DNA of 64,000 bases, from assembly GCA_949296775.1 (NCBI GenBank), contig CASFQA010000002.1, positions 98,305-162,304 of the forward strand, read 5' to 3'. The position numbers and the translations under genes were made by a program. Below the pieces are notes generated by a model that was given only the letters and a program-made list of their open reading frames with translations, did no database searches and was not told the DNA's origin. This DNA is from an uncultured bacterium. GTDB lineage: Bacteria > Bacillota_I > Bacilli_A > RFN20 > CAG-826. This document shows, piece after piece, positions 16,739 through 57,800 of this stretch. Positions within the stretch are counted from its first letter, which is position 1. Each line of letters opens with the position of its first letter.

Positions 16739-17995
16739 TTACTTGTTTTGTTCGGAAGATTCGCCATCTTCCTTCTTTTCCTCGGCGGGCTTGCCTTCTT
16801 TTTCTTTCGCGTTCTTTTCCTCGTTGTCGTTTTTAGAGGGTTCTTCTGGCTTAGCCCATGGAAGGTCGGGTAGATTCCAGGTGGGATGCAGCTTCTTGGC
16901 CAAAGCGAGGTTGGCTTCAAGCAAAGCCCGATCGACTTTCTCTTTGGTCTTATCCAATCCTTTATAGACTTTCTCGACCTTATCAAGCGCGAAATAGGCT
17001 TCGGTTTCGCTTTCCTCGATCAAAGCCGAGATAAGCAAATAGCAACGAAGGGCCGCGGGCGAGGAGACATTGGAGATGTATTTCTTAACGTTATCGTTAA
17101 GGTCTTCCTTATACATTTTGATGCCATCTCGCGGATTGGCGGAGGAAAGGAGGATCGAAAGCTTAAGGGCCCCGGCCTCGTTGACGAGGTTGGGGTTGAC
17201 CTTTTCGGCGGTCATCAGCTTATCGATTATTTTCGAAGCGGATCCAACGTCGCCTTTAGCCAAATCGGCATAGACGACATTAAGATTCAAGTTGAACGTG
17301 AGGTCGGTCAAATCGTCGTAGACCACCGGGGAGGGAACCGGTTGGCCTAATTCGACGGCTTCGTCCGCCAAAAGCAAGTCGTTGTAAGCTTTTTTGTTGG
17401 TCGGTTTGGAAACCAAAACCATCAAATAGCCATCGGTGGTCGAATCCAAGTGGGCGGGGAAGTAATCGTAAATATAGATCATCCCGCCGACGACTAGGCA
17501 GCAAACAGCGAAAATCTGCAGCCAGCCGGCCGTCGAATCGGTGCTTTGGGTGATCAAAAATTTCGAGACCGACATCAAAACCACCATTATGACGACCTCG
17601 ATAAGGAAATAGATGAGCGGGAAAGCGACATAGCCGGCTAACGAAGATTTTTCCCGGTCCTTAGGCGCGACTTTGGTTTCGCCGGTTAACCCATCGAAAC
17701 TGTGAAACCCGATTTTCTTTCCGGTCGCGGTCTTTTTAAACCCAAAGCCCAAAACAATGAAACTACGAAGGCGCAGTTTCCCGATTTTCGCGCCGGTCAA
17801 ATGCCCAAGTTCCAACAAAATCGAATTAAGCAGGATGCCGGCGACAATCGAAAGGATTATCAAAACGATTGGGTTGATGCCGACGCTGTTGCTGAACTGG
17901 CTGGTCATCGGTCGAATCCAAACCAAGCCTGCGACGATAGCCAAAGCAAACATCACTACATAGACAACGAAAACCGCGAAGTCATTCTTCTTCAT
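16739..17995 (-). CDS. M50 (site-2 protease)-like membrane protein with degenerate zinc motif
   Basis: 418 residues. Membrane helices lie at about 8-28, 42-65, 127-148 and 155-180. The second helix carries LLELGHLTGAKIGKLRLRSF, which aligns with the HExGHxxxA zinc motif of site-2 proteases, but the first His is Leu. Further on, FPAHLDSTTDGYL keeps the P...DG pattern of the third zinc ligand. The C-terminal 200 residues are helical, and the tail is Lys/Glu-rich and disordered. Loss of one of three zinc ligands suggests a non-proteolytic homologue, perhaps a binding subunit. It is the last gene of the six-gene operon; its Shine-Dalgarno overlaps the preceding stop. Confidence 0.7.
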   Translation of the reverse strand: MKKNDFAVFVVYVVMFALAIVAGLVWIRPMTSQFSNSVGINPIVLIILSIVAGILLNSILLELGHLTGAKIGKLRLRSFIVLGFGFKKTATGKKIGFHSFDGLTGETKVAPKDREKSSLAGYVAFPLIYFLIEVVIMVVLMSVSKFLITQSTDSTAGWLQIFAVCCLVVGGMIYIYDYFPAHLDSTTDGYLMVLVSKPTNKKAYNDLLLADEAVELGQPVPSPVVYDDLTDLTFNLNLNVVYADLAKGDVGSASKIIDKLMTAEKVNPNLVNEAGALKLSILLSSANPRDGIKMYKEDLNDNVKKYISNVSSPAALRCYLLISALIEESETEAYFALDKVEKVYKGLDKTKEKVDRALLEANLALAKKLHPTWNLPDLPWAKPEEPSKNDNEEKNAKEKEGKPAEEKKEDGESSEQNK

Positions 17996-17999
17996 ACCT

Positions 18000-19184
18000 T
18001 TACTCCTTTGTTTTCAATAAGCGGGAAAATATTTCCATCACATCCTCCGCCTCTAGTGATTGGGGGTAACAGCCAATCACACGTGTTCTGTTACCGGTGG
18101 CTAGATTAACCAAAGGATCAATGTCGCTTTCGCTGAGCCCCAATTCGTTTAATGTCTTGGGCATGCCGATGGAAATAAAGAAATCCCTCATCGACCCGAT
18201 GGCTATTATAGACGTTTCCTCATCGTTATGGCCAACAATATCGAAAACCCGCCGACCAAGCTTTGCGAGCTTGGCTTGATTTTCTTTTCGCTTAACCGCG
18301 GCCCAAGCCGGCCAAATCAAAGCGACGCCGGCTCCATGCGTAATTTTTGGGGCATAGCCGCTTAAAGCGTGCTCGAGAGGGTGAACGACGAAGAAGAATT
18401 GTTTGCCGAGGCCGGTTAATCCATTATGGGAAAGGGTGCTGTTGAGCATGACTTTGGCCCGGGCGGAATAGTCGCTCGGGCTGCAAAGAAGGCACCGGGC
18501 GGCTTGAATGGTATCCTTTATCAAATCCAACGCCCACTCATCGGAGAGCTCATCGCCCTCGCCGGGATCGAAGTAGCGTTCCAAGGAATGCATGATTATG
18601 TCGGAAATCCCAGCAAAAGTCTGATATGTCGGACAAGAAAAAGTTAATTCGGGGTTCTCGATGGCGAATCGAGGCCGTACTAGATCGCTGTTAAAACCTT
18701 GCTTTATACCCAATGCGTCATCTTGGATAACGCAGGAGTTCGACCCCTCGGATCCGGCGCTGGCCAAAGTCAAAATCGCCCCGACTGGCAGTGCCTTCTC
18801 AACCTGGGCTTTCTTCAAATTGAAATCGAATGGATCGCCGCCGTAATAAAACCCAGCCGCAATAGCCTTGGCCGTATCGATAACCGAGCCCCCGCCGATT
18901 GCCAAAACGTAATCAACGTTCTCTTTCCGGGCCAAAGCCACTCCCTCGCGCACTTTTTCGGCCACCGGATTAGGGCGGATGCCGCTTAATTCGCGGTAAC
19001 TGATTCCTTTTTCCAGAAGATGGCTTTCGACCTCGCCCAAAAGTCCGGTTTCCCTGATGCGGTTGGAACCATAAACGATCAGCACGATCTGCGCCCGTTC
19101 AAGGGCGAGGATTTCCCCCACCCGGCTTTCTTTGCCGCGACCGAAATATATCTTCGTGGGGGCCACGAAATCGAAATCTATCAT
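18000..19184 (-). CDS. Iron-containing (type III) alcohol dehydrogenase
   Basis: 394 residues. The NAD(P)-binding motif GGGSVIDTAKAIAAG is at about 93-107. The iron ligands are visible in SDIIMHSLERYF (Asp and His), in PLEHALSGY and in THGAGVAL. Overall it resembles butanol dehydrogenase BdhA/YqhD: it reduces aldehydes to alcohols (or the reverse) in the cytosol with NAD(P)H. It overlaps the TetR-type gene by 4 nt (ATGA). Substrate choice cannot be told; fermentation and aldehyde detoxification are both plausible. Confidence 0.93.
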   Translation of the reverse strand: MIDFDFVAPTKIYFGRGKESRVGEILALERAQIVLIVYGSNRIRETGLLGEVESHLLEKGISYRELSGIRPNPVAEKVREGVALARKENVDYVLAIGGGSVIDTAKAIAAGFYYGGDPFDFNLKKAQVEKALPVGAILTLASAGSEGSNSCVIQDDALGIKQGFNSDLVRPRFAIENPELTFSCPTYQTFAGISDIIMHSLERYFDPGEGDELSDEWALDLIKDTIQAARCLLCSPSDYSARAKVMLNSTLSHNGLTGLGKQFFFVVHPLEHALSGYAPKITHGAGVALIWPAWAAVKRKENQAKLAKLGRRVFDIVGHNDEETSIIAIGSMRDFFISIGMPKTLNELGLSESDIDPLVNLATGNRTRVIGCYPQSLEAEDVMEIFSRLLKTKE

Positions 19185-19738
19185 TTGCTCTCCTCTTTTT
19201 TGGCGATCTCCAGCAAATCCGGCAAAAGGATAGTGACTATCGCTTCGTTAAGCTTTCCCATTCGCCGACCGAATTTCTCCGGCGTCAGTTTCGGGTCTTT
19301 GAAGCAATAACCGAACTCATCGGAAATTAGGTGCGAGAAACGGCGGGCCACCGCCCGGAGGCTTTCGATCTTCAAGTCGGCCGGCGGGTTTTTGGTCCAA
19401 AGCAAAAGCAATTTGGCGTTCAGCTTTCCGAAGAGGAAATCATCGGTTAAATCCCGAGCCGCCGAATTATAAGTCGCCCGCAGGAAAGAGAAGTTCTCCT
19501 TGACGTAAGCCAATAAGGCTTTGACCGATTCTTTTGGCCCTTTGGCCCGGTCCAGGCTCGGAAGCGATTCGTTGAGGAAAATGGCGGCGATCAAATCGTA
19601 AATGTCTTGGTAATGGTAATAGAAGGTTTGCCGGTGGCACCCGCATTTGGCGCACAAAGTCGTGACGTTGATGTCCTCGAGGGGGACTTCCGCCATCATC
19701 TCTTTCAAGGCGTGTTTGAATTTTGCCTCCGTGATCAT
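19181..19738 (-). CDS. TetR/AcrR-family transcriptional regulator
   Basis: 185 residues. A helix-turn-helix DNA-binding domain is at about 5-55 (ITEAKFKHALKEMMAEVPLEDINVTTLCAKCGCHRQTFYYHYQDIYDLI). The three-helix pattern with TFYYHYxxIYDL is typical of the dihydroxyacetone-kinase-regulator (DhaS-like) branch of TetR proteins, followed by a helical ligand domain. The start is placed at 19738, because this ATG overlaps the psuG stop as ATGA. It is inside the operon it may control, whose promoter carries a 21 bp palindrome at 26111-26131. Confidence 0.85.
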   Translation of the reverse strand: MITEAKFKHALKEMMAEVPLEDINVTTLCAKCGCHRQTFYYHYQDIYDLIAAIFLNESLPSLDRAKGPKESVKALLAYVKENFSFLRATYNSAARDLTDDFLFGKLNAKLLLLWTKNPPADLKIESLRAVARRFSHLISDEFGYCFKDPKLTPEKFGRRMGKLNEAIVTILLPDLLEIAKKEESK

Positions 19739-20649
19739 ACCCCTTCCTTTTCCATCTTGGCTAAGCAAACGGCGATTTGCGAACCGAGTTTCGCGTTGTT
19801 CAACACCAAATCTATATTAGTATCCAAAGACTTCCCGCCGCTATACTCAACCACCTTTTTAAGCAAGAACGGGGTTACGTCCTTCCCTTTTACCCCCTCT
19901 TCCTCGGCTTCCTTGACCGCCCTATCGACAATCGAATCGATGAACTCATGCGGCAAAGCGAATTCCTCGGGCACCGGATTGCTGATCAAGACCCCGCCCG
20001 ACAAAGACAAATCCTTTTTGGCTTTGATGATGGAGGCCGCTTCTTCGGGGGAGGCGAAAGCATAATCGACCGGGCAGCCGGATGAAGACGAATAGAAACA
20101 AGCGAAATCTTTTTCTTTGTTGGAAAGCACGGTTACGCCTTTGGTCTCCAAATATTCGAGGGTCTTGGGGATGTCGAGAATGGCTTTGGCCCCCGAGCAG
20201 ATAACCGTCACTGGGCACGACCCCAGTTCCTCTAAATCCCGGGAGACGTCAAAGGTATGCTCCGCCCCTCGGTGGACACCGCCAATCCCGCCGGTAACGA
20301 ATATCTCAATGCCGGCCATCGAAGCGCAAAGCATGGTGGCGGAAACCGTGGTCGCCCCCCACATCTTTTTAGCCACAACAATCGGCAAATCGCGTTTAGA
20401 AACTTTGCAAATCCCTTTTCTTTTTCCAAATTCTTCGATTTCCTCACTCTTCATGCCGACAACGATTTCCCCGTCGATTATGCCGATGGTGGCCGGGATT
20501 GCCCCGTTCTCGCGAACGGTCTTTTCCACCGCCAATGCGGTCTCGACGTTTCGCGGATAAGGCATTCCGTGGCTGATGATGGTCGACTCTAAAGCGACCA
20601 CTGGAAGTTTTTGCGCCAAGGCCTTGGCGACTTCTAAATTAATTCTCAC
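19735..20649 (-). CDS. psuG: Pseudouridine-5'-phosphate glycosidase
   Basis: 304 residues with the complete PsuG signature: PVVALESTIISHGMPYPRNVETA near 15-37, ATIGIIDGEIVVGM, KVSKRDLP, WGATTVSATM and VFVTGGIGGVHRGAE near 115-130. It cleaves the C-glycosidic bond of pseudouridine 5'-phosphate to uracil and ribose 5-phosphate; the conserved Lys forms the ring-opened intermediate. The usual pseudouridine kinase psuK is not adjacent. The start is GTG at 20649 with AAGGAGG before it, overlapping the ATPase stop by 11 nt. Confidence 0.95.
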   Translation of the reverse strand: MRINLEVAKALAQKLPVVALESTIISHGMPYPRNVETALAVEKTVRENGAIPATIGIIDGEIVVGMKSEEIEEFGKRKGICKVSKRDLPIVVAKKMWGATTVSATMLCASMAGIEIFVTGGIGGVHRGAEHTFDVSRDLEELGSCPVTVICSGAKAILDIPKTLEYLETKGVTVLSNKEKDFACFYSSSSGCPVDYAFASPEEAASIIKAKKDLSLSGGVLISNPVPEEFALPHEFIDSIVDRAVKEAEEEGVKGKDVTPFLLKKVVEYSGGKSLDTNIDLVLNNAKLGSQIAVCLAKMEKEGV

Positions 20650-23140
20650 GTTCTTCCTCCTTCTTCGGCAGCAACATTGAAGTCAGGTAATTCAAGCCGA
20701 AATACATCGCCCCAACAACCAAAAGCGAGAGAATCAAGGCGATGATCAACCCGTAATTAAATCCATCCCAGGTAATGCCAAGCAGTTTGCCGCGGATGAA
20801 GAAATCCCCGATCAAAACGCCGGCCCCAACGATTGAGGCGGCCGTGAAGACGAATATCCGATAACCGTTGAACGGATAGCAAACAAAACCCAAAACGAAG
20901 TAACTGAATAGGGTAAAGTTAAGAACCGCGAAGGTCTTGGTGAGTTCCAAAACCACCTCCGAGTCCGTTGGGTTGCTGATGAAGAGGTGGGGATTGGCCA
21001 TCGACAAAATGTAAGGGACAAGGGAAATCACGACCGAACAAATGCCCGCTGGGCAAGCCTTGACGATGATATTCTTTATGAAGGAGCCGCGTAGCCTCTC
21101 GTTGGATGGCTGCAAAGCCAAGAAGAACGCCGACCCTCCGATAGTCACGATTTCCCAAATAATCAAATTGGCCGTCGAGAAAGGATAGGAATACTCCGGC
21201 CCCATCCCCAACGCCAACAAAGAGAAGAAGAAGGTCATGACTACGGCGAAGATGGTTTTGGTGAGGAAAAGTGAGCAAGTCCGTTGAAGGTTGTTGATGA
21301 CTCGCCGCCCTTGGGCGACGACATCAGGCAATTTCGAGAAATTCGAATCCAAGGAAACTAGGTGGGAAACGTTTTTGGCCGCATCGGAGCCGGAAGCCAT
21401 GGCGATTGAGCAGTCAGCGACTTTCAAGGCGAGGATATCGTTAACCCCGTCGCCGGTCATCGCTACTTTGTGGCCTTGCTTTTTGAAGGTCTCGACCAAA
21501 ACCGCTTTCTGTTCGGGGTTTACCCGGCCGAAAACCGAATAGGAACGGGCAAGGCGGGCGGTCTCTTCGATCGAGACCCCTTCCAAAGAAACGAATTGAT
21601 CGGCTTTTTCCACCCCGACGCGGCGAGCGATTTCGCTGACGGTCACCGGATCGTCGCCGGAAATGATCTTGATATCGACGCCGTTCGATTTAAACCACTC
21701 GATATTCTCTTTGGCGTCGTCTTTGATGTGGTCCGATAGCGTAACCACCCCGATTAACTCACAGCTTTTTGAAACCCGACCGTTTTCGATTGGCTTCTTG
21801 CTCCGGGCCACCACCAGGCAGCGATAGCCTTCCCGGCTCTTGGATTTGATGATCCGCTCAGTCCGGAAATCCGCTTTCGCTGGCACGAAACCGTACGCCC
21901 CGAAAACAAACGTCTCTCCGTTAAGCAAAGTAACGGCGGAGTATTTGAGCTCGGAATCAAAGGGGATGCATTCCTCCATCGGTTCGTGGCAATCCGACCC
22001 GTAATAAGCTTTTAAGGCGTTCGCGGTGGCGTTGGTGTCGTGGGTGTAATGGAGAACGCTCGCGACGGCATAAGCTATATTGACCTTTTGGTTTTTCCCC
22101 ACCGGAATCTCTTCGGATAAAGTCATCGTCCCATCGGTTAAGGTTCCGGTTTTGTCCAAGCAAAGAACATCGATCCTAGCCAACATCTCAATGCAGTAAA
22201 GTTGCTGCACCAATACCCGTTTCTTAGCCAAAGCCACAACCCCAACGGCCAAGGAAAGGGAGGTTAGGAGGAACATCCCGGTTGGAAGCATCGCCACCAA
22301 GGAGCCGGAAAGGCTTTCGACAAAGGAAACAAGCCTTTTGTCCAAGGTTAAGAACACCTCGTTGAAGGTGGCTCCGTGTTGGAAACGGGGCACGGCATAA
22401 GTCGCGGTCGTCATGACGCCAAAAAGCAAAGCCAAAGAGCAACAGATGATCATGATGATGTTGATCGAGCGCTTAATTTCCGATTTCGGACGAGAGAATT
22501 GCTTGGCGCTGGCTTGAATCGATTCGACGTAATTGGCCGATCCGACCTTCGTCACCTGGGCCACGCAAGTGCCTTTGGTTAAATAGGTGCTGGCTAAAAT
22601 CTCGTCTCCGGGATTCTTCGGCACCGGGACCGATTCCCCGGTCAGCATCGATTCGTCGACCGAGATTTTCCCTTCGATAATCCGGCAATCGGCCGGAACG
22701 GCGTCGCCGGCCTTCAACGTGATGATGTCGGAAAGAACGATGTCGTTGGCCGAAAGATCCATGTGGCGGCCACTGCGGATAACGTCGACCCGCGGATCGA
22801 CGGAAACGCGCAGCTTATCGACCAAATGCCGCGCGTGGATATCTTGAATCAACCCGATGGTGATGTTGGCTGACAAAATTACCATAAACACGTAATGGGA
22901 TATAGAAAGCCCCACCGCCACCATCATGGCGAAAACCAAGAAGAGGATGATGTTCAGGAAGTTGAATAAGTTGTCGAAAAGAATACGGCCGTAGCTTTTG
23001 GTGACTTGTTTTTTGGTTTTGTTGGTAAGGTTGGCTTCGTTACGGGCTTCGACCTGCTCGCTATTCAGGCCAAACCGACTGTCAACCTCATAATGAGGAG
23101 CCGCCACAATGCGGTCGTTGGTTCTTTTTCTTCGCCCCAT
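20639..23140 (-). CDS. CtpE-like cation-transporting P-type ATPase
   Basis: 833 residues. The actuator TGES loop is at about 166 (MLTGESVPVP). The phosphorylation motif DKTGTLTDG is at about 330, where D is phosphorylated, and the hinge TGDGVNDILALKVADC is near 560. The membrane motif before phosphorylation is MLPTGMFLLTS rather than PEGL, CPC or CPH. That fits the CtpE-type group, which is linked to Ca2+ uptake, rather than heavy-metal P1B pumps. About ten membrane helices are expected. It starts 2 nt after the ABC transporter stop. Ion specificity is inferred only from motif class. Confidence 0.9.
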   Translation of the reverse strand: MGRRKRTNDRIVAAPHYEVDSRFGLNSEQVEARNEANLTNKTKKQVTKSYGRILFDNLFNFLNIILFLVFAMMVAVGLSISHYVFMVILSANITIGLIQDIHARHLVDKLRVSVDPRVDVIRSGRHMDLSANDIVLSDIITLKAGDAVPADCRIIEGKISVDESMLTGESVPVPKNPGDEILASTYLTKGTCVAQVTKVGSANYVESIQASAKQFSRPKSEIKRSINIIMIICCSLALLFGVMTTATYAVPRFQHGATFNEVFLTLDKRLVSFVESLSGSLVAMLPTGMFLLTSLSLAVGVVALAKKRVLVQQLYCIEMLARIDVLCLDKTGTLTDGTMTLSEEIPVGKNQKVNIAYAVASVLHYTHDTNATANALKAYYGSDCHEPMEECIPFDSELKYSAVTLLNGETFVFGAYGFVPAKADFRTERIIKSKSREGYRCLVVARSKKPIENGRVSKSCELIGVVTLSDHIKDDAKENIEWFKSNGVDIKIISGDDPVTVSEIARRVGVEKADQFVSLEGVSIEETARLARSYSVFGRVNPEQKAVLVETFKKQGHKVAMTGDGVNDILALKVADCSIAMASGSDAAKNVSHLVSLDSNFSKLPDVVAQGRRVINNLQRTCSLFLTKTIFAVVMTFFFSLLALGMGPEYSYPFSTANLIIWEIVTIGGSAFFLALQPSNERLRGSFIKNIIVKACPAGICSVVISLVPYILSMANPHLFISNPTDSEVVLELTKTFAVLNFTLFSYFVLGFVCYPFNGYRIFVFTAASIVGAGVLIGDFFIRGKLLGITWDGFNYGLIIALILSLLVVGAMYFGLNYLTSMLLPKKEEEREN

Positions 23141-23141
23141 G

Positions 23142-26084
23142 CTACTCGCTCCTTAAACAACGGACTGGGTCGCGCTTGGCGGCGATCCGCGAAGGGACGA
23201 ACCCTGACAGGAAGGCCAATAGAATGGCCAGAATCACCAAAATGATTCCGTGCCACCAAGCCAACGAAGCTATCGAGCCTAGACCGTTGCCCGGGAAAAT
23301 ATTATCAATAATCAGATTAATTGGTATACACAGCAGCAAAGTCATCAAGATGCCGATGAGCCCAGCAACCCCGCCGATGAGGACACATTCGGCTTCGAAT
23401 ATCCGGCCCACGTCTTTCTTTCTGGCTCCACAAGCGCGCAAAACGCCGATTTCTTTCGTCCTTTCGACCACCGAAACATAGGTAATGATGGCGGTCATGA
23501 CCGATGAAACCAACAAGGAAATCGAGGCAAAAACGATCAAGACGGCCGATATGACGTCGATCATGGTTGCGATGGTGTCGGTGAAATCGGACATCACGTC
23601 GGAATAGATAATCTGATCTTTGTCCATCTTTCCCTCGTTAAGGCTGTCAAGGTAACTCAGGATCGTCGGTTTGTCGACTAAGGTCTTCGGAAAAATAAGG
23701 ATCGAGGATATGGTGGAGTAGGAGTTGGAGACCGCCATCAGATCAGCGACATTCGGATTCCCGCTTGGATCAAAGAACCCGTCGCCCATCAGCCAAGAAA
23801 ATAAGGTAAGCACGCCGGATTCATCCATTAGGCTTTCCAAATCGATCGAATTGAAGGACGAGCCCAAGGCCGAGCACCAAGAAAGAAACGAGTTCACCGA
23901 AGTGGTGTTGGTGACGCTGCCGGTCGCCGGGCGATAGATTATCGCGTTCCCCAAAATATCGTTCATCACCGAAGAATCCAACGATATCGAACCGGTTTCC
24001 GCCATTTGCTTCAAGGCGTTTTTCATAACCAGGTTCAGCCCTTCGTTGAGGTTTTTCAATCCATCTAACGTCACGCGGTCCTCGCCTTCCCCATACCCCC
24101 ACGCATCGGTTGGGACAAACCAATTACGGCTTTGCAGCTCGGCCAACTGATGGCCGGGCTGGCCTTCCTCGGAATCTTTCACGATCAGTTGAGTGAGTTG
24201 GCTGGTATAAGCCAAAGAGGCCGGCATCAACGAAAGGTAGGAATCGGGGTTCGGGCGGAGCACGCCGACGATTTTCAGATCGGTCGGATGATAAATTTCG
24301 TCGTTATTGTAAACGGCGGTCACGGACGGCTCAGGGTAACTGACGATTTCTTTTTCGGTTTTGTCGCCAACGAACTCCATGCTTTCGATGAAGGCTTGGT
24401 AATCGCCGTTAAGCAAGGCGGCCCTGTCGCCATTTAGCTGAACGTTTTCGTAGCAATGGACGCTATCGACTTCCGGAGTGGCGCCGCCCGACAGATAGTA
24501 ATCGCTATTGGTGTAGACTTTGTATTTCTTATAGTCCTCGTCATTCGCTCCGTCATAGACGATGTCGGAGAAATCGATTTGCTTTTCGTCATCATCCATA
24601 TATTCGAAGTCGGCGTTGGAATCGATGATTCCGATGGCTTGCAACGTATTGATGTCGATTCGGTTATAGTTATCGACGACCAGAACCATTTCGTCCGCGG
24701 CGGTCGGGAACTTCCCGTAGATCACATCGTATAATCCTTCCATCGCTTCCTCGTCGCCGTAAAGCTCATGGATTACGCTGGTCGGCAAAGAGGTGACGGA
24801 GGAAACGGCGCTCGAAAACATGCCGGCTTGTTGGTATTGGTTTAATGAGCGGATGCGCCCGGTGTCGCCATCCTCGGCCAGAAAATGGAAATCGAGCCCA
24901 TCGTGGTTTTCCATAATCGAAAAGACCAATCCATAGGCGGGGTTATTCGGGTCATCCATCATGGCATAAAGTTTGTCAATGTAATCTTGGGTTATGTTGT
25001 TCTGGTGAGCGATGAACATTGACGACGCCGAAGAATCGTAAACCCGTAGCAGCCCATCGTCGGGATAAAGATCTTTTGAGGTATATTCCTGCTCATCGCT
25101 CTCCTTGATGGAATAGACCGTCGGCGAGATGGTGATGGGGACGCTGGAAGCGACCGAAGTCTCAACGTCCGCGATATAATTCGAGAAACCATTGGAAGTG
25201 GCGAGTACCAAAGCCACCCCGATTATGCCGATTGAGCAGGCGACGGCGGTCAAAGCGGTCCGCCCTTTCTTGGTCAAAACGTTTTGGGTCGAGGAACGAA
25301 GAGCCGTTAAGAAGGACATCGAGGTTTTTCGCCCTCTTTCCTCATAAACGTCTTCTTCCAGCGGCGAGAGCCCATTCGCAGACAAAGGGGCGGTGTCGCC
25401 GATTATCTCGCCATCCCGCATCCGGATGATCCGATCGGAGTATTTTTTGGCCAGTTTTTCGTTATGGGTGACCACGATGACGCAGCGATCCTTGGCCATG
25501 TCCTTGATGAGATCCATGACCTGGATCGAGGTTTCGGAATCCAAAGCCCCCGTCGGTTCGTCGGCCAAGATAATCTCCGGGTCGTTAACCAAAGCCCGGG
25601 CGATGGCGACCCGCTGCATTTGCCCACCGCTAAGCTCGTTTGGCTTTTTCTTCATCATCGAGCCTAAGCCGACCCTAATTAGCACATCCTCGGCTTTTTT
25701 GGCCCGCTCCTTCGGCCCGACCCCCGCGAGTTGCAAAGGCAATTCGACGTTTTGGAGAATACTCATGTGGGGGATAAGGTTATACGACTGGAAAACGAAA
25801 CCGATTCTTTTGTTTCGGAAATTGTCCCAATCGGCGTCTTTGAAGTCCTTTGTCGATTTCCCCTCGACCAGCAAATCGCCTTCGGTATAGCGGTCTAGGC
25901 CGCCGATGATGTTGAGCAAAGTGGTTTTTCCCGACCCCGATTCCCCGAGGATCGAAACGAAGCCGACCGACGGAAAACAAAGGGATAGGTCTTTAATCGC
26001 GGTGAAAGGGATGTTCTCAACGTAATAGTCTTTCTTGATGTGCCGCAATTCAAGCGAGACGGAACCAGTGGTATCGGGCGACAT
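23142..26084 (-). CDS. MacB-like ABC transporter, fused ATPase and permease
   Basis: 980 residues. The N-terminal ATPase domain (about 10-240) has Walker A LGESGSGKTTL near 46, signature LSGGQMQR near 155, and Walker B IILADEPTGALDS near 170. The first membrane helix is at about 275-298, followed by a large extracytoplasmic domain of about 500 residues. A FtsX-type permease block is at the C-terminus with three helices (about 850-970). This MacB/FtsX topology is used as mechanotransmission machinery to push peptides, lipoproteins or antimicrobials, not as a classical importer. It is the first gene of the operon; SD GAGG is upstream, and the extended -10 sits under a palindromic operator. Confidence 0.92.
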   Translation of the reverse strand: MSPDTTGSVSLELRHIKKDYYVENIPFTAIKDLSLCFPSVGFVSILGESGSGKTTLLNIIGGLDRYTEGDLLVEGKSTKDFKDADWDNFRNKRIGFVFQSYNLIPHMSILQNVELPLQLAGVGPKERAKKAEDVLIRVGLGSMMKKKPNELSGGQMQRVAIARALVNDPEIILADEPTGALDSETSIQVMDLIKDMAKDRCVIVVTHNEKLAKKYSDRIIRMRDGEIIGDTAPLSANGLSPLEEDVYEERGRKTSMSFLTALRSSTQNVLTKKGRTALTAVACSIGIIGVALVLATSNGFSNYIADVETSVASSVPITISPTVYSIKESDEQEYTSKDLYPDDGLLRVYDSSASSMFIAHQNNITQDYIDKLYAMMDDPNNPAYGLVFSIMENHDGLDFHFLAEDGDTGRIRSLNQYQQAGMFSSAVSSVTSLPTSVIHELYGDEEAMEGLYDVIYGKFPTAADEMVLVVDNYNRIDINTLQAIGIIDSNADFEYMDDDEKQIDFSDIVYDGANDEDYKKYKVYTNSDYYLSGGATPEVDSVHCYENVQLNGDRAALLNGDYQAFIESMEFVGDKTEKEIVSYPEPSVTAVYNNDEIYHPTDLKIVGVLRPNPDSYLSLMPASLAYTSQLTQLIVKDSEEGQPGHQLAELQSRNWFVPTDAWGYGEGEDRVTLDGLKNLNEGLNLVMKNALKQMAETGSISLDSSVMNDILGNAIIYRPATGSVTNTTSVNSFLSWCSALGSSFNSIDLESLMDESGVLTLFSWLMGDGFFDPSGNPNVADLMAVSNSYSTISSILIFPKTLVDKPTILSYLDSLNEGKMDKDQIIYSDVMSDFTDTIATMIDVISAVLIVFASISLLVSSVMTAIITYVSVVERTKEIGVLRACGARKKDVGRIFEAECVLIGGVAGLIGILMTLLLCIPINLIIDNIFPGNGLGSIASLAWWHGIILVILAILLAFLSGFVPSRIAAKRDPVRCLRSE

Positions 26085-26100
26085 AAAAACCTCTTAGGGG

Positions 26101-26131
26101 CTAATGTATTATAGCAAAGATACTTTGCTAT
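26101..26131 (-). promoter_or_regulatory. Operator-promoter of the six-gene ABC/ATPase/psuG operon
   Basis: Minus-strand TGC TATAAT forms an extended -10 (26116-26108) and gives a start near 26101. It is overlaid by a perfect inverted repeat with arms ATAGCAAAG and CTTTGCTAT separated by three bases (26111-26131). An operator covering the -10 is a typical repressor layout; the operon's own TetR-type gene is a candidate binder (inference). Confidence 0.7.
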
Positions 26132-26300: not shown

Positions 26301-26750
26301 TTATTCGTTTTTCCCATTTCGTTGGTTGGCGAAAAACCGATTGAGCAAACTCGCCGATTTTGCCTCTTCCTCGCCGAAATATACCAAAGGGCTCGCATAA
26401 GCGTCTTTGGAGGAAAAAAGGTGGTAGGCCGATTCCGCCCCGTACCGCTCGTCCTTGGCCGCGCAATGCAACGAGCGAACTCGCGCCTGCTTAATGGCGC
26501 CCGCGCACATAAGGCACGGCTCTAAGGTGACGTAAACGGCGCATCCATCAAGGGCCCAGCGCCCAAGTTGCTTAGCCGCCTCTTTCATCGCCGATATCTC
26601 CGCATGCCCGCTGATATCGAGTTCGCGTTCGCGCTTATTGTGCCCTCGGCCGATAATCCGGCCGTCTTTGACAACCACCGCCCCCACCGGGACTTCGTCT
26701 TCTTCTAGGGCTATCTGAGCCTCTTTTAAGGCTTCTATCATGTAATCCAT
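26301..26750 (-). CDS. tadA: tRNA-adenosine deaminase TadA
   Basis: 149 residues of the cytidine-deaminase fold. The zinc and catalytic residues are SGHAEISAMKEA (His and proton-shuttling Glu, about 52-60) and the TLEPCLMCAGAI dyad of Cys. It deaminates A34 of tRNA(Arg)-ACG to inosine. The start at 26750 gives the usual MDYMIEALKEAQIALEE N-terminus. There is no Shine-Dalgarno, and the gene follows the SRP RNA by only about 18 nt, with a TATCTT -10 candidate ending 8 nt before the ATG. A longer in-frame extension would run back into the SRP RNA and is rejected. Confidence 0.94.
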   Translation of the reverse strand: MDYMIEALKEAQIALEEDEVPVGAVVVKDGRIIGRGHNKRERELDISGHAEISAMKEAAKQLGRWALDGCAVYVTLEPCLMCAGAIKQARVRSLHCAAKDERYGAESAYHLFSSKDAYASPLVYFGEEEAKSASLLNRFFANQRNGKNE

Positions 26751-26758
26751 CGAAGTAA

Positions 26759-26788
26759 AAGATAAACAAAACCACCGCACAGGAGCAA
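26759..26788 (-). promoter_or_regulatory. Candidate tadA promoter embedded in SRP RNA 3' end
   Basis: Minus-strand TTGCTC (26788-26783), an 18 bp spacer, and TATCTT (26764-26759). The -35 lies within the 3' arm of the SRP RNA, and the start would be at the tadA ATG. Confidence 0.4.
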
Positions 26789-26849
26789 GACGTTTAAGGC
26801 TGCTTGGTTCCCCACCTGACCTGGTTCGCGCCCCGCCCCTCGCGATGGC
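26768..26849 (-). ncRNA. ffs: Signal recognition particle RNA, small bacterial type
   Basis: About 82 nt. The apical domain is diagnostic: CAGGTCAGG, then TGG-GGAA-CCA tetraloop stem, then AGCAGCC, which are the conserved internal-loop sequences contacted by Ffh. The 5' CCATCGC (26848-26842) pairs with the 3' GCGGTGG (26778-26772), and inner segments AGGGGC/GCTCCT and GGGGCG/CGTCTT extend the hairpin, followed by TTTT. A TATAAT -10 (26861-26856) predicts a start at about 26849. It partners Ffh in co-translational membrane targeting. Its place next to tadA echoes the tadA-scr linkage in Bacillus, but here it precedes tadA. Confidence 0.92.
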
Positions 26850-26855
26850 GTGAGG

Positions 26856-26861
26856 ATTATA
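26856..26861 (-). promoter_or_regulatory. -10 box of the SRP RNA
   Basis: Minus-strand TATAAT at 26861-26856, 7 nt before the predicted RNA 5' end. It lies just beyond the serS terminator. Confidence 0.65.
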
Positions 26862-26873
26862 TGCCAACACTAA

Positions 26874-35021: not shown

Positions 35022-35025
<4 letters not shown>

Positions 35026-35246
35026 GCTTCGATCAAGTAAGCGTCTCCCTCGATCGCGACGAGGTCGCCGGGCCGGAGCTTTCGGCCTCGCCGATTCTCC
35101 TTCTCCCCATTGACTTCGATTGCGTGGGTCGCCAGATACGCCTTCGCTTCGCCGCCGAAGCCGATGATGGAGACGAATTTCAGCAATTGCCCCAACGTAA
35201 TGTATTCGGTGCGGATGCGGACTGTTTGCGGCGCCTTGTTACCCAT
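35022..35246 (-). CDS. yaaA: S4-domain RNA-binding protein YaaA/RlbA
   Basis: 74 residues of a single S4 domain: TLGQLLKFVSIIGFGGEAKAYLATHAIEVNGEKENRRGRKLRPGD. The dnaN-yaaA-recF position is conserved across Firmicutes and the protein is linked to ribosome assembly. It opens the recF-gyrB-gyrA-serS operon here: a terminator lies just upstream, and TAAACT (35258-35253) ends 6 nt before the ATG, so the message is predicted to be leaderless. Confidence 0.93.
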
Positions 35247-35271: not shown

Positions 35272-35300
35272 AAAAACGGTAGACTTTTCTACCGTTTTTT
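35271..35300 (-). terminator. Intrinsic terminator after dnaN
   Basis: AAAAAACGGTAGA and its complement TCTACCGTTTTTT surround a four-base loop. A U tract on the minus strand follows. The stem symmetry makes it possibly bidirectional. Confidence 0.9.
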
Positions 35301-35326: not shown

Positions 35327-36448
35327 TCAATAGACGTGAAGCGGCGTAATAAGCTCTACCGAGGAATCGTCGCTGGGGCTGCGGACTATAAAAGGCCGAC
35401 TTTCGGTTTGGAAGCAAAGCTCGATATCTTCGCTCCGCAGGGCTTTGATGGCCTCGCTTACAAGCAGCGAATTGATGGCGACCTCCATCCGTTCACCGGT
35501 ATAGCGGAAGTTGTTAATTTCTTCGTTGGCCGACCCTTTCTCGCGATTCTTGATCGAAAGCTCGATCTTCTCGTCGGACATCAAAAGCTTGATGGCGTTG
35601 TCCCTGGCGTTGGAAAGAACCGAGACCCGCTCGATCGCCGAAAGGAATTCCTGAGAATTGACTTGAAGGACGTAATTGAAGATTTTCGGGAAGGCGGCGG
35701 AAAGGTTCGGGTAAGTCCCAGGAATCAAACGGGACGAAACGACGGCTCCGTCGAAAGAGAAGAGGGCTTGCTTATCGGAAACGGCAACGTCGACGGTTTT
35801 GGCGCCTTCGAACAGCCCAACGATATCCAGAAGGCTTTTGGCGGGGATGTTAACCGACAAATCCAAATCCGAATCGACGGCGATCTTCTTGGTGGCGACC
35901 CGAGCGGAGTCGGTGGCGATGGCGGAAAGGGTCCCGCCGCGCAAGGTGAGGCTAATGGCGGTCAAAATAGCGTCCTGAGCGGTTTTAGCCGCGGCGTGGG
36001 CACATTGTTCAACCAGGGACGCAAAGTCGTTGCGCTTGACCGTGAAGGTTTTGCCAACGGCCTCCAAAACGATGTCGGGGTATTCGTCGGCCGAGATGCA
36101 ATTAAGCTTGTAACTGGTGCGATTATCGCCGATTTTCGCCACCGAATTATCGATGACGTCGAAGGAGACCGTCTCGCCTTCCATTTTTCTGGCCCCTTCG
36201 GTTAAGGTGTAGGCGTTAACCAAGGTTGCACCTTGCTGGTAATTGGTGATGATCGGTTTGTCGCCAATCATATAAGGAACCGTGGAGCGGACGGTTATCT
36301 CCCCGTTGGTTCCGGTAACCTCTAAGCCTTTTTCCGTCAAATCCAATTTAACGTTGTCGAGGATCGGCATCGGGTTTTTGGATGATATGGCTTTCGACGC
36401 GCTCAGCAGCGCCTTGAGGAATTGGTTTCGATCAATATTGAGTCTCAT
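35327..36448 (-). CDS. dnaN: DNA polymerase III beta subunit (sliding clamp)
   Basis: 373 residues, three homologous clamp domains of about 120 residues each. Family segments include the KAISSKNPMPILDNVKLDL opening near 16-34, SFSDG-type loops and the C-terminal FIVRSPSDDSSVELITPLHVY, close to the usual VRP(V/I)..Y end. It encircles DNA and tethers Pol III and other factors. Shine-Dalgarno GGAGG lies about 12 nt before the ATG. A perfect DnaA box lies in its upstream region, as is usual in Firmicutes. Confidence 0.97.
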   Translation of the reverse strand: MRLNIDRNQFLKALLSASKAISSKNPMPILDNVKLDLTEKGLEVTGTNGEITVRSTVPYMIGDKPIITNYQQGATLVNAYTLTEGARKMEGETVSFDVIDNSVAKIGDNRTSYKLNCISADEYPDIVLEAVGKTFTVKRNDFASLVEQCAHAAAKTAQDAILTAISLTLRGGTLSAIATDSARVATKKIAVDSDLDLSVNIPAKSLLDIVGLFEGAKTVDVAVSDKQALFSFDGAVVSSRLIPGTYPNLSAAFPKIFNYVLQVNSQEFLSAIERVSVLSNARDNAIKLLMSDEKIELSIKNREKGSANEEINNFRYTGERMEVAINSLLVSEAIKALRSEDIELCFQTESRPFIVRSPSDDSSVELITPLHVY

Positions 36449-52799: not shown

Positions 52800-53420
52800 T
52801 TAGCAATCAATTTCGCTTAAAGGCTTTTTCATCAGCATCCCGAACAGCACGTCACCCGAGGTGAATTTCTTTTCTGAGCGCGGGGCGCAGGCTAAGCGAA
52901 GTTCGGTTTCGATCATCAAGGCCATGGCCCGGCTTATTTCGGCTGGGTCCCCGGCAATGGCGTTGCCTTCTTCCTGGGCTTTGGCAATCAAGACCGCCAA
53001 GGCACCCGCTAGATCGTAACGTTTGGCTTTTTCGTAGATGTCGTAAGGCAGGCCTTTCGCTTGGTAAGCCCGCACGGCGATGGAGCCAGCGTAAAGAGTC
53101 CGGATGTCGGCGTCTTTGAATTTGTCATAGGATTCCGAGATCATCTTGATGCCGGCGGTGCCCCCTTTGGCTAAAGCCGCTTCAAGCGGGGGAACGGCGT
53201 TGGTCGCCTCAATCATCTCGTTCCAAACCGCCGCGAAGACGTCTTCCTTCGATTCGAAATAGTGATAGAAAAGGCCGTGCGAGCAGCGGCTGGCGTTGGT
53301 GATATCATCGATGGCGACGGCGCCGAAACCTTTGATAGCGAAAACTTTGAGCGAAGTGTCGAGCAACTTACCCCTTCTTTTGTCTTTTACCGCCTGATTT
53401 TGTTCTGGTGATCTTGGCAT
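52800..53420 (-). CDS. TetR/AcrR-family transcriptional regulator
   Basis: 206 residues. The DNA-binding domain is at about 14-60, with KLLDTSLKVFAIKGFGAVAIDDITNASRCSHGLFYHYFESKEDVF, a good TetR helix-turn-helix (GLFYHYF is the recognition helix). The rest is a helical ligand and dimer domain. SD GGGAGG lies upstream. The gene converges on the FGGY kinase and might regulate it or ppdK, but this is only suggested by position. An inverted repeat GATAA/TTATC lies in its own leader. Confidence 0.9.
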   Translation of the reverse strand: MPRSPEQNQAVKDKRRGKLLDTSLKVFAIKGFGAVAIDDITNASRCSHGLFYHYFESKEDVFAAVWNEMIEATNAVPPLEAALAKGGTAGIKMISESYDKFKDADIRTLYAGSIAVRAYQAKGLPYDIYEKAKRYDLAGALAVLIAKAQEEGNAIAGDPAEISRAMALMIETELRLACAPRSEKKFTSGDVLFGMLMKKPLSEIDC

Positions 53421-53695: not shown

Positions 53696-54235
53696 ATGAA
53701 AACCTTAGTTTTATATACATCGAACACCGGCTCAACCCAGCGTTATGCCGAGAACTTGGCTTCGGCCCTCAACGCCGATTGCTTCCCGTTGAAAAAATTC
53801 AAATGGAAGAAGATCGATGAGTATGGGCTGATCATCTACGGCGGCTGGGTGCAGGGCGGCAAAATCAAAGGCGTTTCCGATTTCCTGGCCCATTACGATG
53901 ACCTGGAAACGAAGAACGTCATCATTTTCTCTTCCGGGATGGTCGTCCCTTCAAAAGAAGGCCGGGCCGTCATCATCGATTCCAACATCCTCGACGTTTA
54001 TCACGTCCGTTATTACCAGCTGCGCGGAAGCTTTGACCTCAGCAAACTCAACTTCCTCCAAAGGGCGATGATCAAAATGTATTTCCAACAGATCGAAAAC
54101 GACCCGAACGCCAACGTCGGTTACAAAAACTTATTGGAATTCCTCGATGAGCCGCTCGATTATTATGACCGCGAGGGGGTTGATAAGATTTTGGCTATCT
54201 CCAGGAAGATCTTAGCAGGGGAAGGCGAGAAGTGA
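53696..54235 (+). CDS. Flavodoxin-domain protein
   Basis: 179 residues. The FMN phosphate loop TSNTGSTQRYAENLAS is near 8-23, and GLIIYGGWVQGGKIKGVSDFL near 45-65 supplies the ring-contact loop. It is longer than a plain flavodoxin and resembles the flavodoxin-like group that includes HemG protoporphyrinogen oxidase. Electron-transfer role is probable; partners are unknown. It is read with pth by a GTGA overlap. Confidence 0.87.
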   Translation: MKTLVLYTSNTGSTQRYAENLASALNADCFPLKKFKWKKIDEYGLIIYGGWVQGGKIKGVSDFLAHYDDLETKNVIIFSSGMVVPSKEGRAVIIDSNILDVYHVRYYQLRGSFDLSKLNFLQRAMIKMYFQQIENDPNANVGYKNLLEFLDEPLDYYDREGVDKILAISRKILAGEGEK

Positions 54236-54826: not shown

Positions 54827-57800
54827 TTGGAGGTGTTTAAAAAGCTTCGGCTGGGGAAAGGGCGTTTTGTCGTTGAGGAGACGCTGGGCGCCGGGCTGCT
54901 TTTTGCCGCCTTATACAAAGACCAACCGGCTGATTACGCCCTGTTGGCCTCCAACCAATACAACGCCCAACGCCTTTATGAGTTTTTGCTAAACTTCCTA
55001 AGCGAAGAGGAAGTGGTGTTTTTCCCGGCGGACGAATTGCTCCGGGCCGAATCGCTTTCCTCTTCCCGCGAATTGCTGTCCCAGCGCCTTTATGGGCTCC
55101 ACCAACTCTTGAAGCCCGGGAAAAAGATCCTAGTCACCCACCCGAGCGCCGCTTTAAGGTTTTTGCCTGATCCGAAACGCTTCGCCGCCGAGACCACCGT
55201 GGTGAAAAAAGGCTCGACGCTTGATCTTAGTCAACTGAAGAAACGACTGGTCAATCTCGGCTATGAAGGGGTCAATAAGGTCGACCATTCCCTGCAGTTC
55301 GCTTCCCGAGGTGATATCCTGGACGTCTATACCGTCGCTTATCCCGATCCGGTCCGAATTGAGTTTTGGGGCGACGAGGTCGATTCGATAAGGACGTTTG
55401 ACCCCCAGACGCAGGAGTCAAGGCGAGAACTTGAGGAATGCTCTGTCTTGCCGGCGAGCGACATCTTCCTTGACGAAGAGGAAAAAGCCTTGGTCGACAA
55501 AGAGATCGACCAGCGGCTCGCCCAAGCTCGGAACTTGATCGCCCCTGAGCTTTTTGACAACCTCAAAGCCACGGCGGGCGACGCGAAGACCCGTTTGGCC
55601 GATCATGATTATCGACCAGGGTTATACAAATATTTCGGCTTATTGAAACCCCACCATTCGGTTTTGGAGTATTTTGCCCCAGACATCGTTTATCTTTGCA
55701 ATTCCGACGCTTTTTCCTCCTCGGTTCAAATGCTTAGCAAAGAAGCAAATTCCTACTTAACCGACTTGCTTTTGCAGGGATTATGCCTCCCTTCGCTTTC
55801 CCAATACCTTTCTTTTGACCAAGCGATCCCTGCTTCCTCGCGGTTAGTGAAAGGCGAGCCTTTTTCCACCAAACCCGACGACTTGGTTTTTCAAGCCCAC
55901 AAGATTGCCATCACCGGCAAATCCCTGTCCGCCATTTTGCCGACCATCCAAAGCTATCTTTCCACCAACGACAAAGTCGTGCTGTGCCTAAGCGAGCCCC
56001 ATCAAGAGAAAACGGTGAAAGAATTCTTGTCTGATGGGGGAGTCGAGTTCGAGGACGTCGAGGGTTTGTCTTTGCCGTCTGGGCGGGTCGGCTTTTCCCG
56101 TAACGGCTTAAGCGAAGGGTTCGAAGTCCCTTGCCTCGGGGTGGCCTATTTATCGGCCAACGAGCTGTTTGGCCGGCGCATCGTCAATTCGCGCTTCACC
56201 TCCCGTTTTAAGGAAGCGACCATTCTTCGGTCATACGAAGATCTTCGCCAAGGCGATTACGTGGTTCATGAGTACAACGGCATCGGGCAATTTATCGACG
56301 TCCAGACCATCGAGGTCGATGGGGTCCACCGGGATTTCCTCCACATCGCTTATGCCAACAACGAATACCTCTATGTCCCGCTGGAGCAATTTCGTCTCGT
56401 TCGAAAGTATGCCGGGCGCGAAGGGGCCGCCCCCAAATTGTCCAGCCTTTCGAGCAAGGAGTGGGAAAAGAAGAAAAAGAAAATCAAAAGCCGGATTAAC
56501 GAATTGGCTGACCGGCTTATCGCTCTTTACGGGGAAAGGGCCAACCAAAGAGGGTACGCTTTTCTCCCAGACGACGAGCTGCAACGGCAATTTGAGGAAG
56601 AATTCCCCTATCAGCTGACTGATGACCAGCAAAAAGCGGTCGACGCCATAAAAAGCGACATGGAGAAGCCGGAAATCATGGACCGCCTGATCTGCGGCGA
56701 TGTTGGGTTTGGCAAAACCGAAGTGGCGTTCCGGGCTGCCTTCAAGGCCATCGACAACGGAAAACAAGTGGCTTTGCTTTGCCCAACCACCTTATTGGCC
56801 CGCCAACATTACGAAGTGGCGATGGAGCGTTTTTCCTCTTTTGGCGTTCATATCGCCTTGTTCTCAAGGTTGATTCCCGAAGCGACCCAAAAGGCCAATC
56901 TGAAGTTGATCGAAGAAGGGAAGATCGACTTGGTTATCGGGACCCACCGTTTGCTGTCGAAGGATTTCCGTTTCCACGATTTGGGCCTGCTCATCGTCGA
57001 TGAGGAACAGCGGTTTGGGGTTGAGCAGAAGGAATGGATAAAGGAAAAGAAGAAGGAGGTCGACGTCTTGACGTTAAGCGCCACCCCTATCCCGAGGACA
57101 CTGCAGATGTCTTTGGTCGGCATTCGCCCGATGTCGGAGATCAACACCGCGCCGTCTTCGAGGATGCCGATTCAAACCTATGTCACCCCTTATTCCCCGG
57201 CGGTGGTCGACGAACTGATTGCCCGGGAACTGGCTAGGGGAGGGCAGGTTTTCTACGTTCATAACAAAGTCATGTCGATCTACGCCACGGCCTATAAGAT
57301 TTCTTCTCGAAACCCCCAAGCCCAAGTGGGGGTAGTCCATGGGCAGATGGACAAGGAAGAAATCGAGTCGGTCATGGCCGATTTCTATGATGGAAAACTC
57401 AACGTACTGGTTTGCACTTCGATCGTGGAAAACGGCATCGACATTCCTAACGCCAACATGATAATCGTCGAGGACGCCGATACTTTCGGCTTGTCGCAGC
57501 TATATCAAATCAAAGGCCGGGTCGGGCGCGGGCAGCGAATCGCCTACGCCTATTTGATGTATCGGGCGAAGAAAAACATGAATGAGGACGCCAAAAAACG
57601 CCTTCAAGCCATTCAGGAATTCACCGAATTGGGATCCGGCTACAAAATCGCCCAACGGGACTTAATGATCCGTGGGGCGGGCGACATCCTCGGGCCCGAA
57701 CAAGCCGGCTTTATCGATTCGGTCGGCCTCGACTTATATTTGAAGATGCTTAACGAGGCGGTCAGCGAAAAGAAAAACGGGAAAGAGGAGGAGCCGCCGA

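Follow-up and report, generated by a model that had tools for sequence, protein, structure and literature searches.

A candidate operator of apparently recent origin over the promoter of an ABC transporter and P-type ATPase operon in three sister species

The 64,000-nucleotide stretch of bacterial DNA analyzed here (herein referred to as the window) carries a perfect inverted repeat at the head of an operon that encodes its own TetR-family regulator, which raises the question of whether the repeat is an operator and, if it is, whether the regulator encoded in the operon is the protein that binds it. The repeat spans positions 26111–26131 and is a 21-bp, 9-3-9 palindrome (ATAGCAAAG-ATA-CTTTGCTAT) situated 27–47 bases upstream of the ABC transporter start codon (ATG at 26084), which in turn lies downstream of a Shine–Dalgarno-like AAGAGG (26090–26095, minus strand). 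On the minus strand, TG at 26116–26115 and TATAAT at 26113–26108 make up an extended −10 (TGCTATAAT, 26108–26116) that is overlapped by the downstream arm of the palindrome, the gene-proximal arm ending in TAT, the first half of TATAAT. We read the promoter as an extended −10 because a consensus promoter scan returned no −35/−10 pair and no recognizable −35. The locus therefore has the two features expected of an operator for a dimeric repressor, namely dyad symmetry (a perfect 9-3-9 repeat in three species) and overlap with the promoter, here with the TGCTATAAT predicted from the sequence. The sequence-only reading had described arms perfectly inverted around three bases, lying over an extended −10; coordinates and letters prove exact, and its further proposal of an operator over the operon promoter is well supported, both by where the palindrome lies and by its symmetric conservation in three species. 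We set aside a MerR-type site, which would lie between a −35 and a −10, since this palindrome extends into the −10 and no −35 is conserved in the window's species.

The operon comprises six tightly packed minus-strand open reading frames that touch or overlap. In order of transcription these are an ABC transporter with a MacB-like ATPase fused to an FtsX-type permease (980 aa, 23142–26084), a P-type ATPase (833 aa, 20639–23140), a member of the PsuG/Indigoidine_A family (304 aa, 19735–20649), a DhaS-like TetR-family regulator (185 aa, 19181–19738) whose ATG overlaps the psuG stop, an iron-containing alcohol dehydrogenase (ADH; 394 aa, 18000–19184) and a membrane protein (16739–17995) that is kept with the operon across the genus. 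Profile matches (Indigoidine_A and Fe-ADH among them) uphold the names first given to the ABC, P-type ATPase, PsuG and alcohol dehydrogenase genes, and the TetR name holds as DhaS-like, although under Pfam's own cut-off; the label "degenerate M50-like" for the last gene finds no profile support, this protein having no profile match at E 0.001 and a single weak, unrelated-looking match at E 0.046. The conserved upstream neighbor, which we take to be tadA from reading its sequence, lies at 26301–26870 on the same strand. Across the genus the order is serS-tadA-ABC-P-ATPase-PsuG-TetR-ADH-(membrane protein), facing TldE/TldD; tadA, ABC, and TetR are present in all 20 of the other genus loci, some of which are cut by contig ends, and PsuG, P-ATPase, or ADH is missing in some. 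Related genera share a similar gene order with TetR proteins 36–40% identical, some having no ABC gene at that place. To our knowledge, no inducer is known for this operon (ABC exporter, P-type ATPase, PsuG, and ADH).

Considered from its own sequence alone, the palindrome is only mildly improbable. Dinucleotide shuffling of the 216-bp intergenic gap produced a perfectly inverted pair of arms, each 9 bp or longer, in 28 of 2,000 shuffles. The 64-kb window contains two perfect repeats with such arms and a 3-base spacer, against four summed over 12 shuffled windows, and when spacers of 0–8 are allowed it contains seven, against one to five in each of the 12. Because these odds are only mildly unusual, the case for an operator rests on the relatives, that is, on three species and one paired substitution.

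Of the 30 other members of the genus, 21 have nearly full-length matches to the ABC gene, and the two closest of these, the sister species G009 and G028, encode proteins 84–85% identical to that of the window's species (G000) and 91.5% identical to each other. Both sisters carry a perfect 9-3-9 palindrome at the ABC promoter (ATAACAAAG-CTT-CTTTGTTAT in G009 and ATAGCAAAG-TTT-CTTTGCTAT in G028), at a distance from the start codon that agrees with the window within two bases. Across the three species, the upstream arm (26123–26131 in the window) has eight invariant columns out of nine, compared with one of the three spacer columns and 48 of the 168 other upstream columns; fourfold-degenerate sites in the ABC gene are 50–67% identical, and the DNA around the palindrome is near saturation. 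The ninth column is a paired change: G009 has A for G in one arm and T for C in the other. This change falls at the unconstrained n of TGnTATAAT and so leaves the promoter untouched while preserving the symmetry; the extended −10 reads TGTTATAAT in G009 and TGCTATAAT in G028 and in G014, the next closest species (ABC 69% identical). The promoter of G014 has TTTTGCTATAAT without the mirror arm. By parsimony, given the C common to G000, G028, and the G014 half-site, both substitutions probably fell on the G009 branch. Arms conserved between diverged flanks and this one paired event together suggest that the symmetry itself is under selection, and sister-species conservation with the compensatory pair puts the palindrome well beyond chance.

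The palindrome is also confined and unique. It is perfect in 3 of the 31 genus genomes and absent in that form from the other 28, and in each of the three it is single-copy with any spacer of 2–12; a search for further promoters bearing it in the window's genome found the one perfect copy, and four further places match only with three mismatches. Copies with up to two mismatches occur in 11 of 31 genomes (a reversed control pattern matches in 6 of 31), and those other than the three perfect ones lie elsewhere in the genome, not at the ABC promoter. A scan of the genome_contigs collection with the palindrome extended by AAT, in which records close to that of the window may have been omitted, returned two contigs, both from sister species. 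The promoter comparison covered the genus members other than seven whose ABC gene is missing or truncated at the end of a contig (G005, G006, G008, G011, G013, G015, and G017), with the promoters of G020 and G021 read by eye only.

A different inverted repeat, TTTATACAnTGTATAAA, is far more widely distributed at the same operon. In the tadA–ABC gap, all 20 of the other genus members have a match of at least 12/16 to TTTATACAnTGTATAAA, where the shuffled mean is near 10; in 16 of these the score is reached by at most 5 of 500 shuffles, and the weaker cases are G029 (34 of 500), G019 (24), G010 (22), and G025 (10). Because the consensus was itself derived by visual inspection of these promoters, the scores are partly circular, the safeguard being the shuffles and reversed controls, which score 9–11 in the 20 genus members. 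The motif further scores 14/16 before the P-ATPase gene in G027, where the ABC gene is missing from this place, and in G036, which belongs to another genus; it is absent in G034 and G032. The score of the window's species is 9, lower than in its own shuffles; judged against its relatives, this species has lost the TTTATACAnTGTATAAA site at the ABC promoter, whereas G009 and G028 carry both TTTATACAnTGTATAAA and the palindrome with centers 40 bp apart. The two elements are alike in being inverted repeats at the promoter of one operon; TTTATACAnTGTATAAA differs in sequence, in its one-base center, in usually lying further upstream, and in its loss at this promoter in the window's species.

The TTTATACAnTGTATAAA motif is not restricted to this operon. 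In the window's genome the same motif, as TTATACACTGTATAA at G000:C2:55676 (outside the window), precedes nrdD, as it also does in both sisters and, as a stronger or weaker match, in most of the remaining members of the genus. G004 has two further sites, near genes that are presumably glutathione-peroxidase-like and DUF362-like (named from reading their sequences). If the TetR controls its own operon throughout the genus, TTTATACAnTGTATAAA would be the more natural site for it; since the motif also stands before nrdD, it may instead be the target of a regulator with a broader reach, in which case the operon TetR would have no known site. The 7-1-7 layout of TTTATACAnTGTATAAA recalls Fur boxes. 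The Fur family was rejected as the general binder, given that 14 of 28 genus genomes have no PF01475 match (G000, G009, and G014 among them) and several of these carry the motif. A text search of the literature found no paper matching a TATACA motif of the TTTATACAnTGTATAAA type.

The operon regulator is, by sequence and modeled fold, a DhaS-like TetR protein. It scores 15.4 against Pfam TetR_N (PF00440), below the cut-off of 24, and 43.7 bits against NCBIfam DhaS (TIGR02366), below the equivalog cut-off of 129; phmmer against the PDB returned 4mk6 (E 4.7e-9) and the DhaS structure 2iu5 (E 0.0068), and the predicted structure (pLDDT 94.5) has as its best fold matches 4mk6 (E 4.7e-7, TM 0.73) and 2iu5. 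Despite the subthreshold PF00440 score, a TetR_N helix-turn-helix in an all-helical fold places it in the TetR family. Likeness to DhaS, the activator of dhaKLM, thus extends to sequence and fold (as for its relative 4mk6), but the score is below the cut-off, the operon here has no dha genes, and DhaS is annotated as an activator. The published DhaS operator is not known to resemble the 26111–26131 palindrome. Text searches of the literature gave no usable operator sequence for SczA or DhaS and no related paper for ATAGCAAAG as an operator.

Whether this TetR binds the palindrome, as the sequence-only reading had suggested and as autoregulation of the operon would imply, depends on how its linkage is set against its constancy. 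The gene lies inside the operon and stays with it in every genus operon compared; the palindrome is single-copy in each genome, a pattern that usually indicates a regulator encoded nearby; a reading by eye of the genes within about 26 kb of it showed no other regulator; the older site is gone from the window's species, where the TetR is still intact; and a symmetric dimer site over a promoter suits a TetR repressor, the TetR fold being confidently predicted. Promoter-overlapping operators of TetR-family repressors generally have likewise a dyad of some 20 bp across the −10 region and a tetR gene in the controlled operon, but here the palindrome does not accompany the tetR gene through the genus and binding is putative. 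All 21 genus members compared share one recognition helix, HRQTFYYH (the G024 and G030 proteins are apparently the same and do not count as independent), and 18 of them have no palindrome, so that the helix does not track a palindrome found in 3 of 31 genomes. The only nearby TetR change unique to the three species is T26, and this position is itself variable (A, S, E, V) in species carrying the other motif; the half-sites of the palindrome and TTTATACAnTGTATAAA do not superimpose; and all 20 of the other genus promoters tested carry TTTATACAnTGTATAAA, a different palindrome. A helix that is constant while the palindrome occurs in only three TetR-carrying species makes this protein a poor candidate, and we regard its binding here as unlikely. 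We lean slightly towards an operator bound by some other protein.

Two further explanations dispense with a DNA-binding protein, and we consider each of them improbable. The palindrome might act as an RNA hairpin, a 3′ end or attenuator in serS-tadA read-through transcripts: a 43-base piece with the 9-bp stem has a folding energy of −8.8 kcal/mol, and symmetric change is likewise expected of an RNA stem. In a 71-base context, however, the hairpin is unremarkable (z −0.30); no minus-strand U-tract follows the stem, as an intrinsic terminator would require, and the only terminator-like match is on the plus strand, whereas the flanking tadA and ABC genes are both on the minus strand. The palindrome has no Rfam match, and, as the stem lies across the −10, it would presumably be missing from transcripts that start at the operon promoter. 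The other explanation is that a chance palindrome has been kept merely through the promoter and shared descent. The shuffles of the intergenic gap lend this some room, but conservation is equal in the arm outside the promoter and in the promoter arm, and the single change in the former has its counterpart in the latter.

The palindrome is thus very probably an operator, that is, a repressor landing site. We hypothesize that it would be bound by a symmetric dimeric protein that covers the extended −10 and blocks RNA polymerase, thereby repressing the ABC-P-ATPase-PsuG-TetR-ADH operon. The palindrome would have arisen in the common ancestor of the three sister species, when an upstream mirror arm became fitted to the TTTGCTATAAT of an existing promoter, and its binder is probably other than the operon TetR, whose helix is constant in a genus that otherwise uses TTTATACAnTGTATAAA. 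More tentatively, and with somewhat less than even confidence, we suggest an operator replacement in progress, in which a second, unrelated 21-bp operator was gained in that ancestor, two species keep both sites and the window's species has lost TTTATACAnTGTATAAA at this promoter; the operon would have passed to a different regulator, its TetR remaining intact and perhaps serving only other targets such as nrdD.

Promoter-overlapping operators are already known as a kind, and the value of this one lies in making a possible regulatory rewiring amenable to study. If the replacement is real, the genus would provide a compact natural series, running from the old site alone through both sites to the new site alone, for an operon changing its regulator, and would illustrate an in-operon regulator that is kept while the operon changes hands. 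A regulator gene within an operon would then be insufficient ground for assigning the nearest palindrome to that regulator.

Several observations stand apart from these questions. The nrdD loci (L114, G000:C2 near 55676–56150; L113, L115, and others) have a long leader after TTATACACTGTATAA with short G/C-rich blocks conserved in the genus, such as GCACGACCCCTAAAGGGT; three of the loci gave no Rfam match and the leader alignment is too poor to test pairing, and a possible unnamed leader RNA is one reading. The ABC promoter of G022 (L022) has another perfect 9-3-9 palindrome, CTTTTAATA-TGC-TATTAAAAG, just before the ABC start, which may be due to chance, some 20 promoters having been read. Within the window, a perfect long inverted repeat (AAAACGGTAG...CTACCGTTTT, 35273–35298) lies between the open reading frames at 35022–35246 and 35327–36448, and a second, canonical-looking TetR-like open reading frame (52800–53420, minus strand) is divergent from one that appears by eye to be flavodoxin-like (53696–54235).
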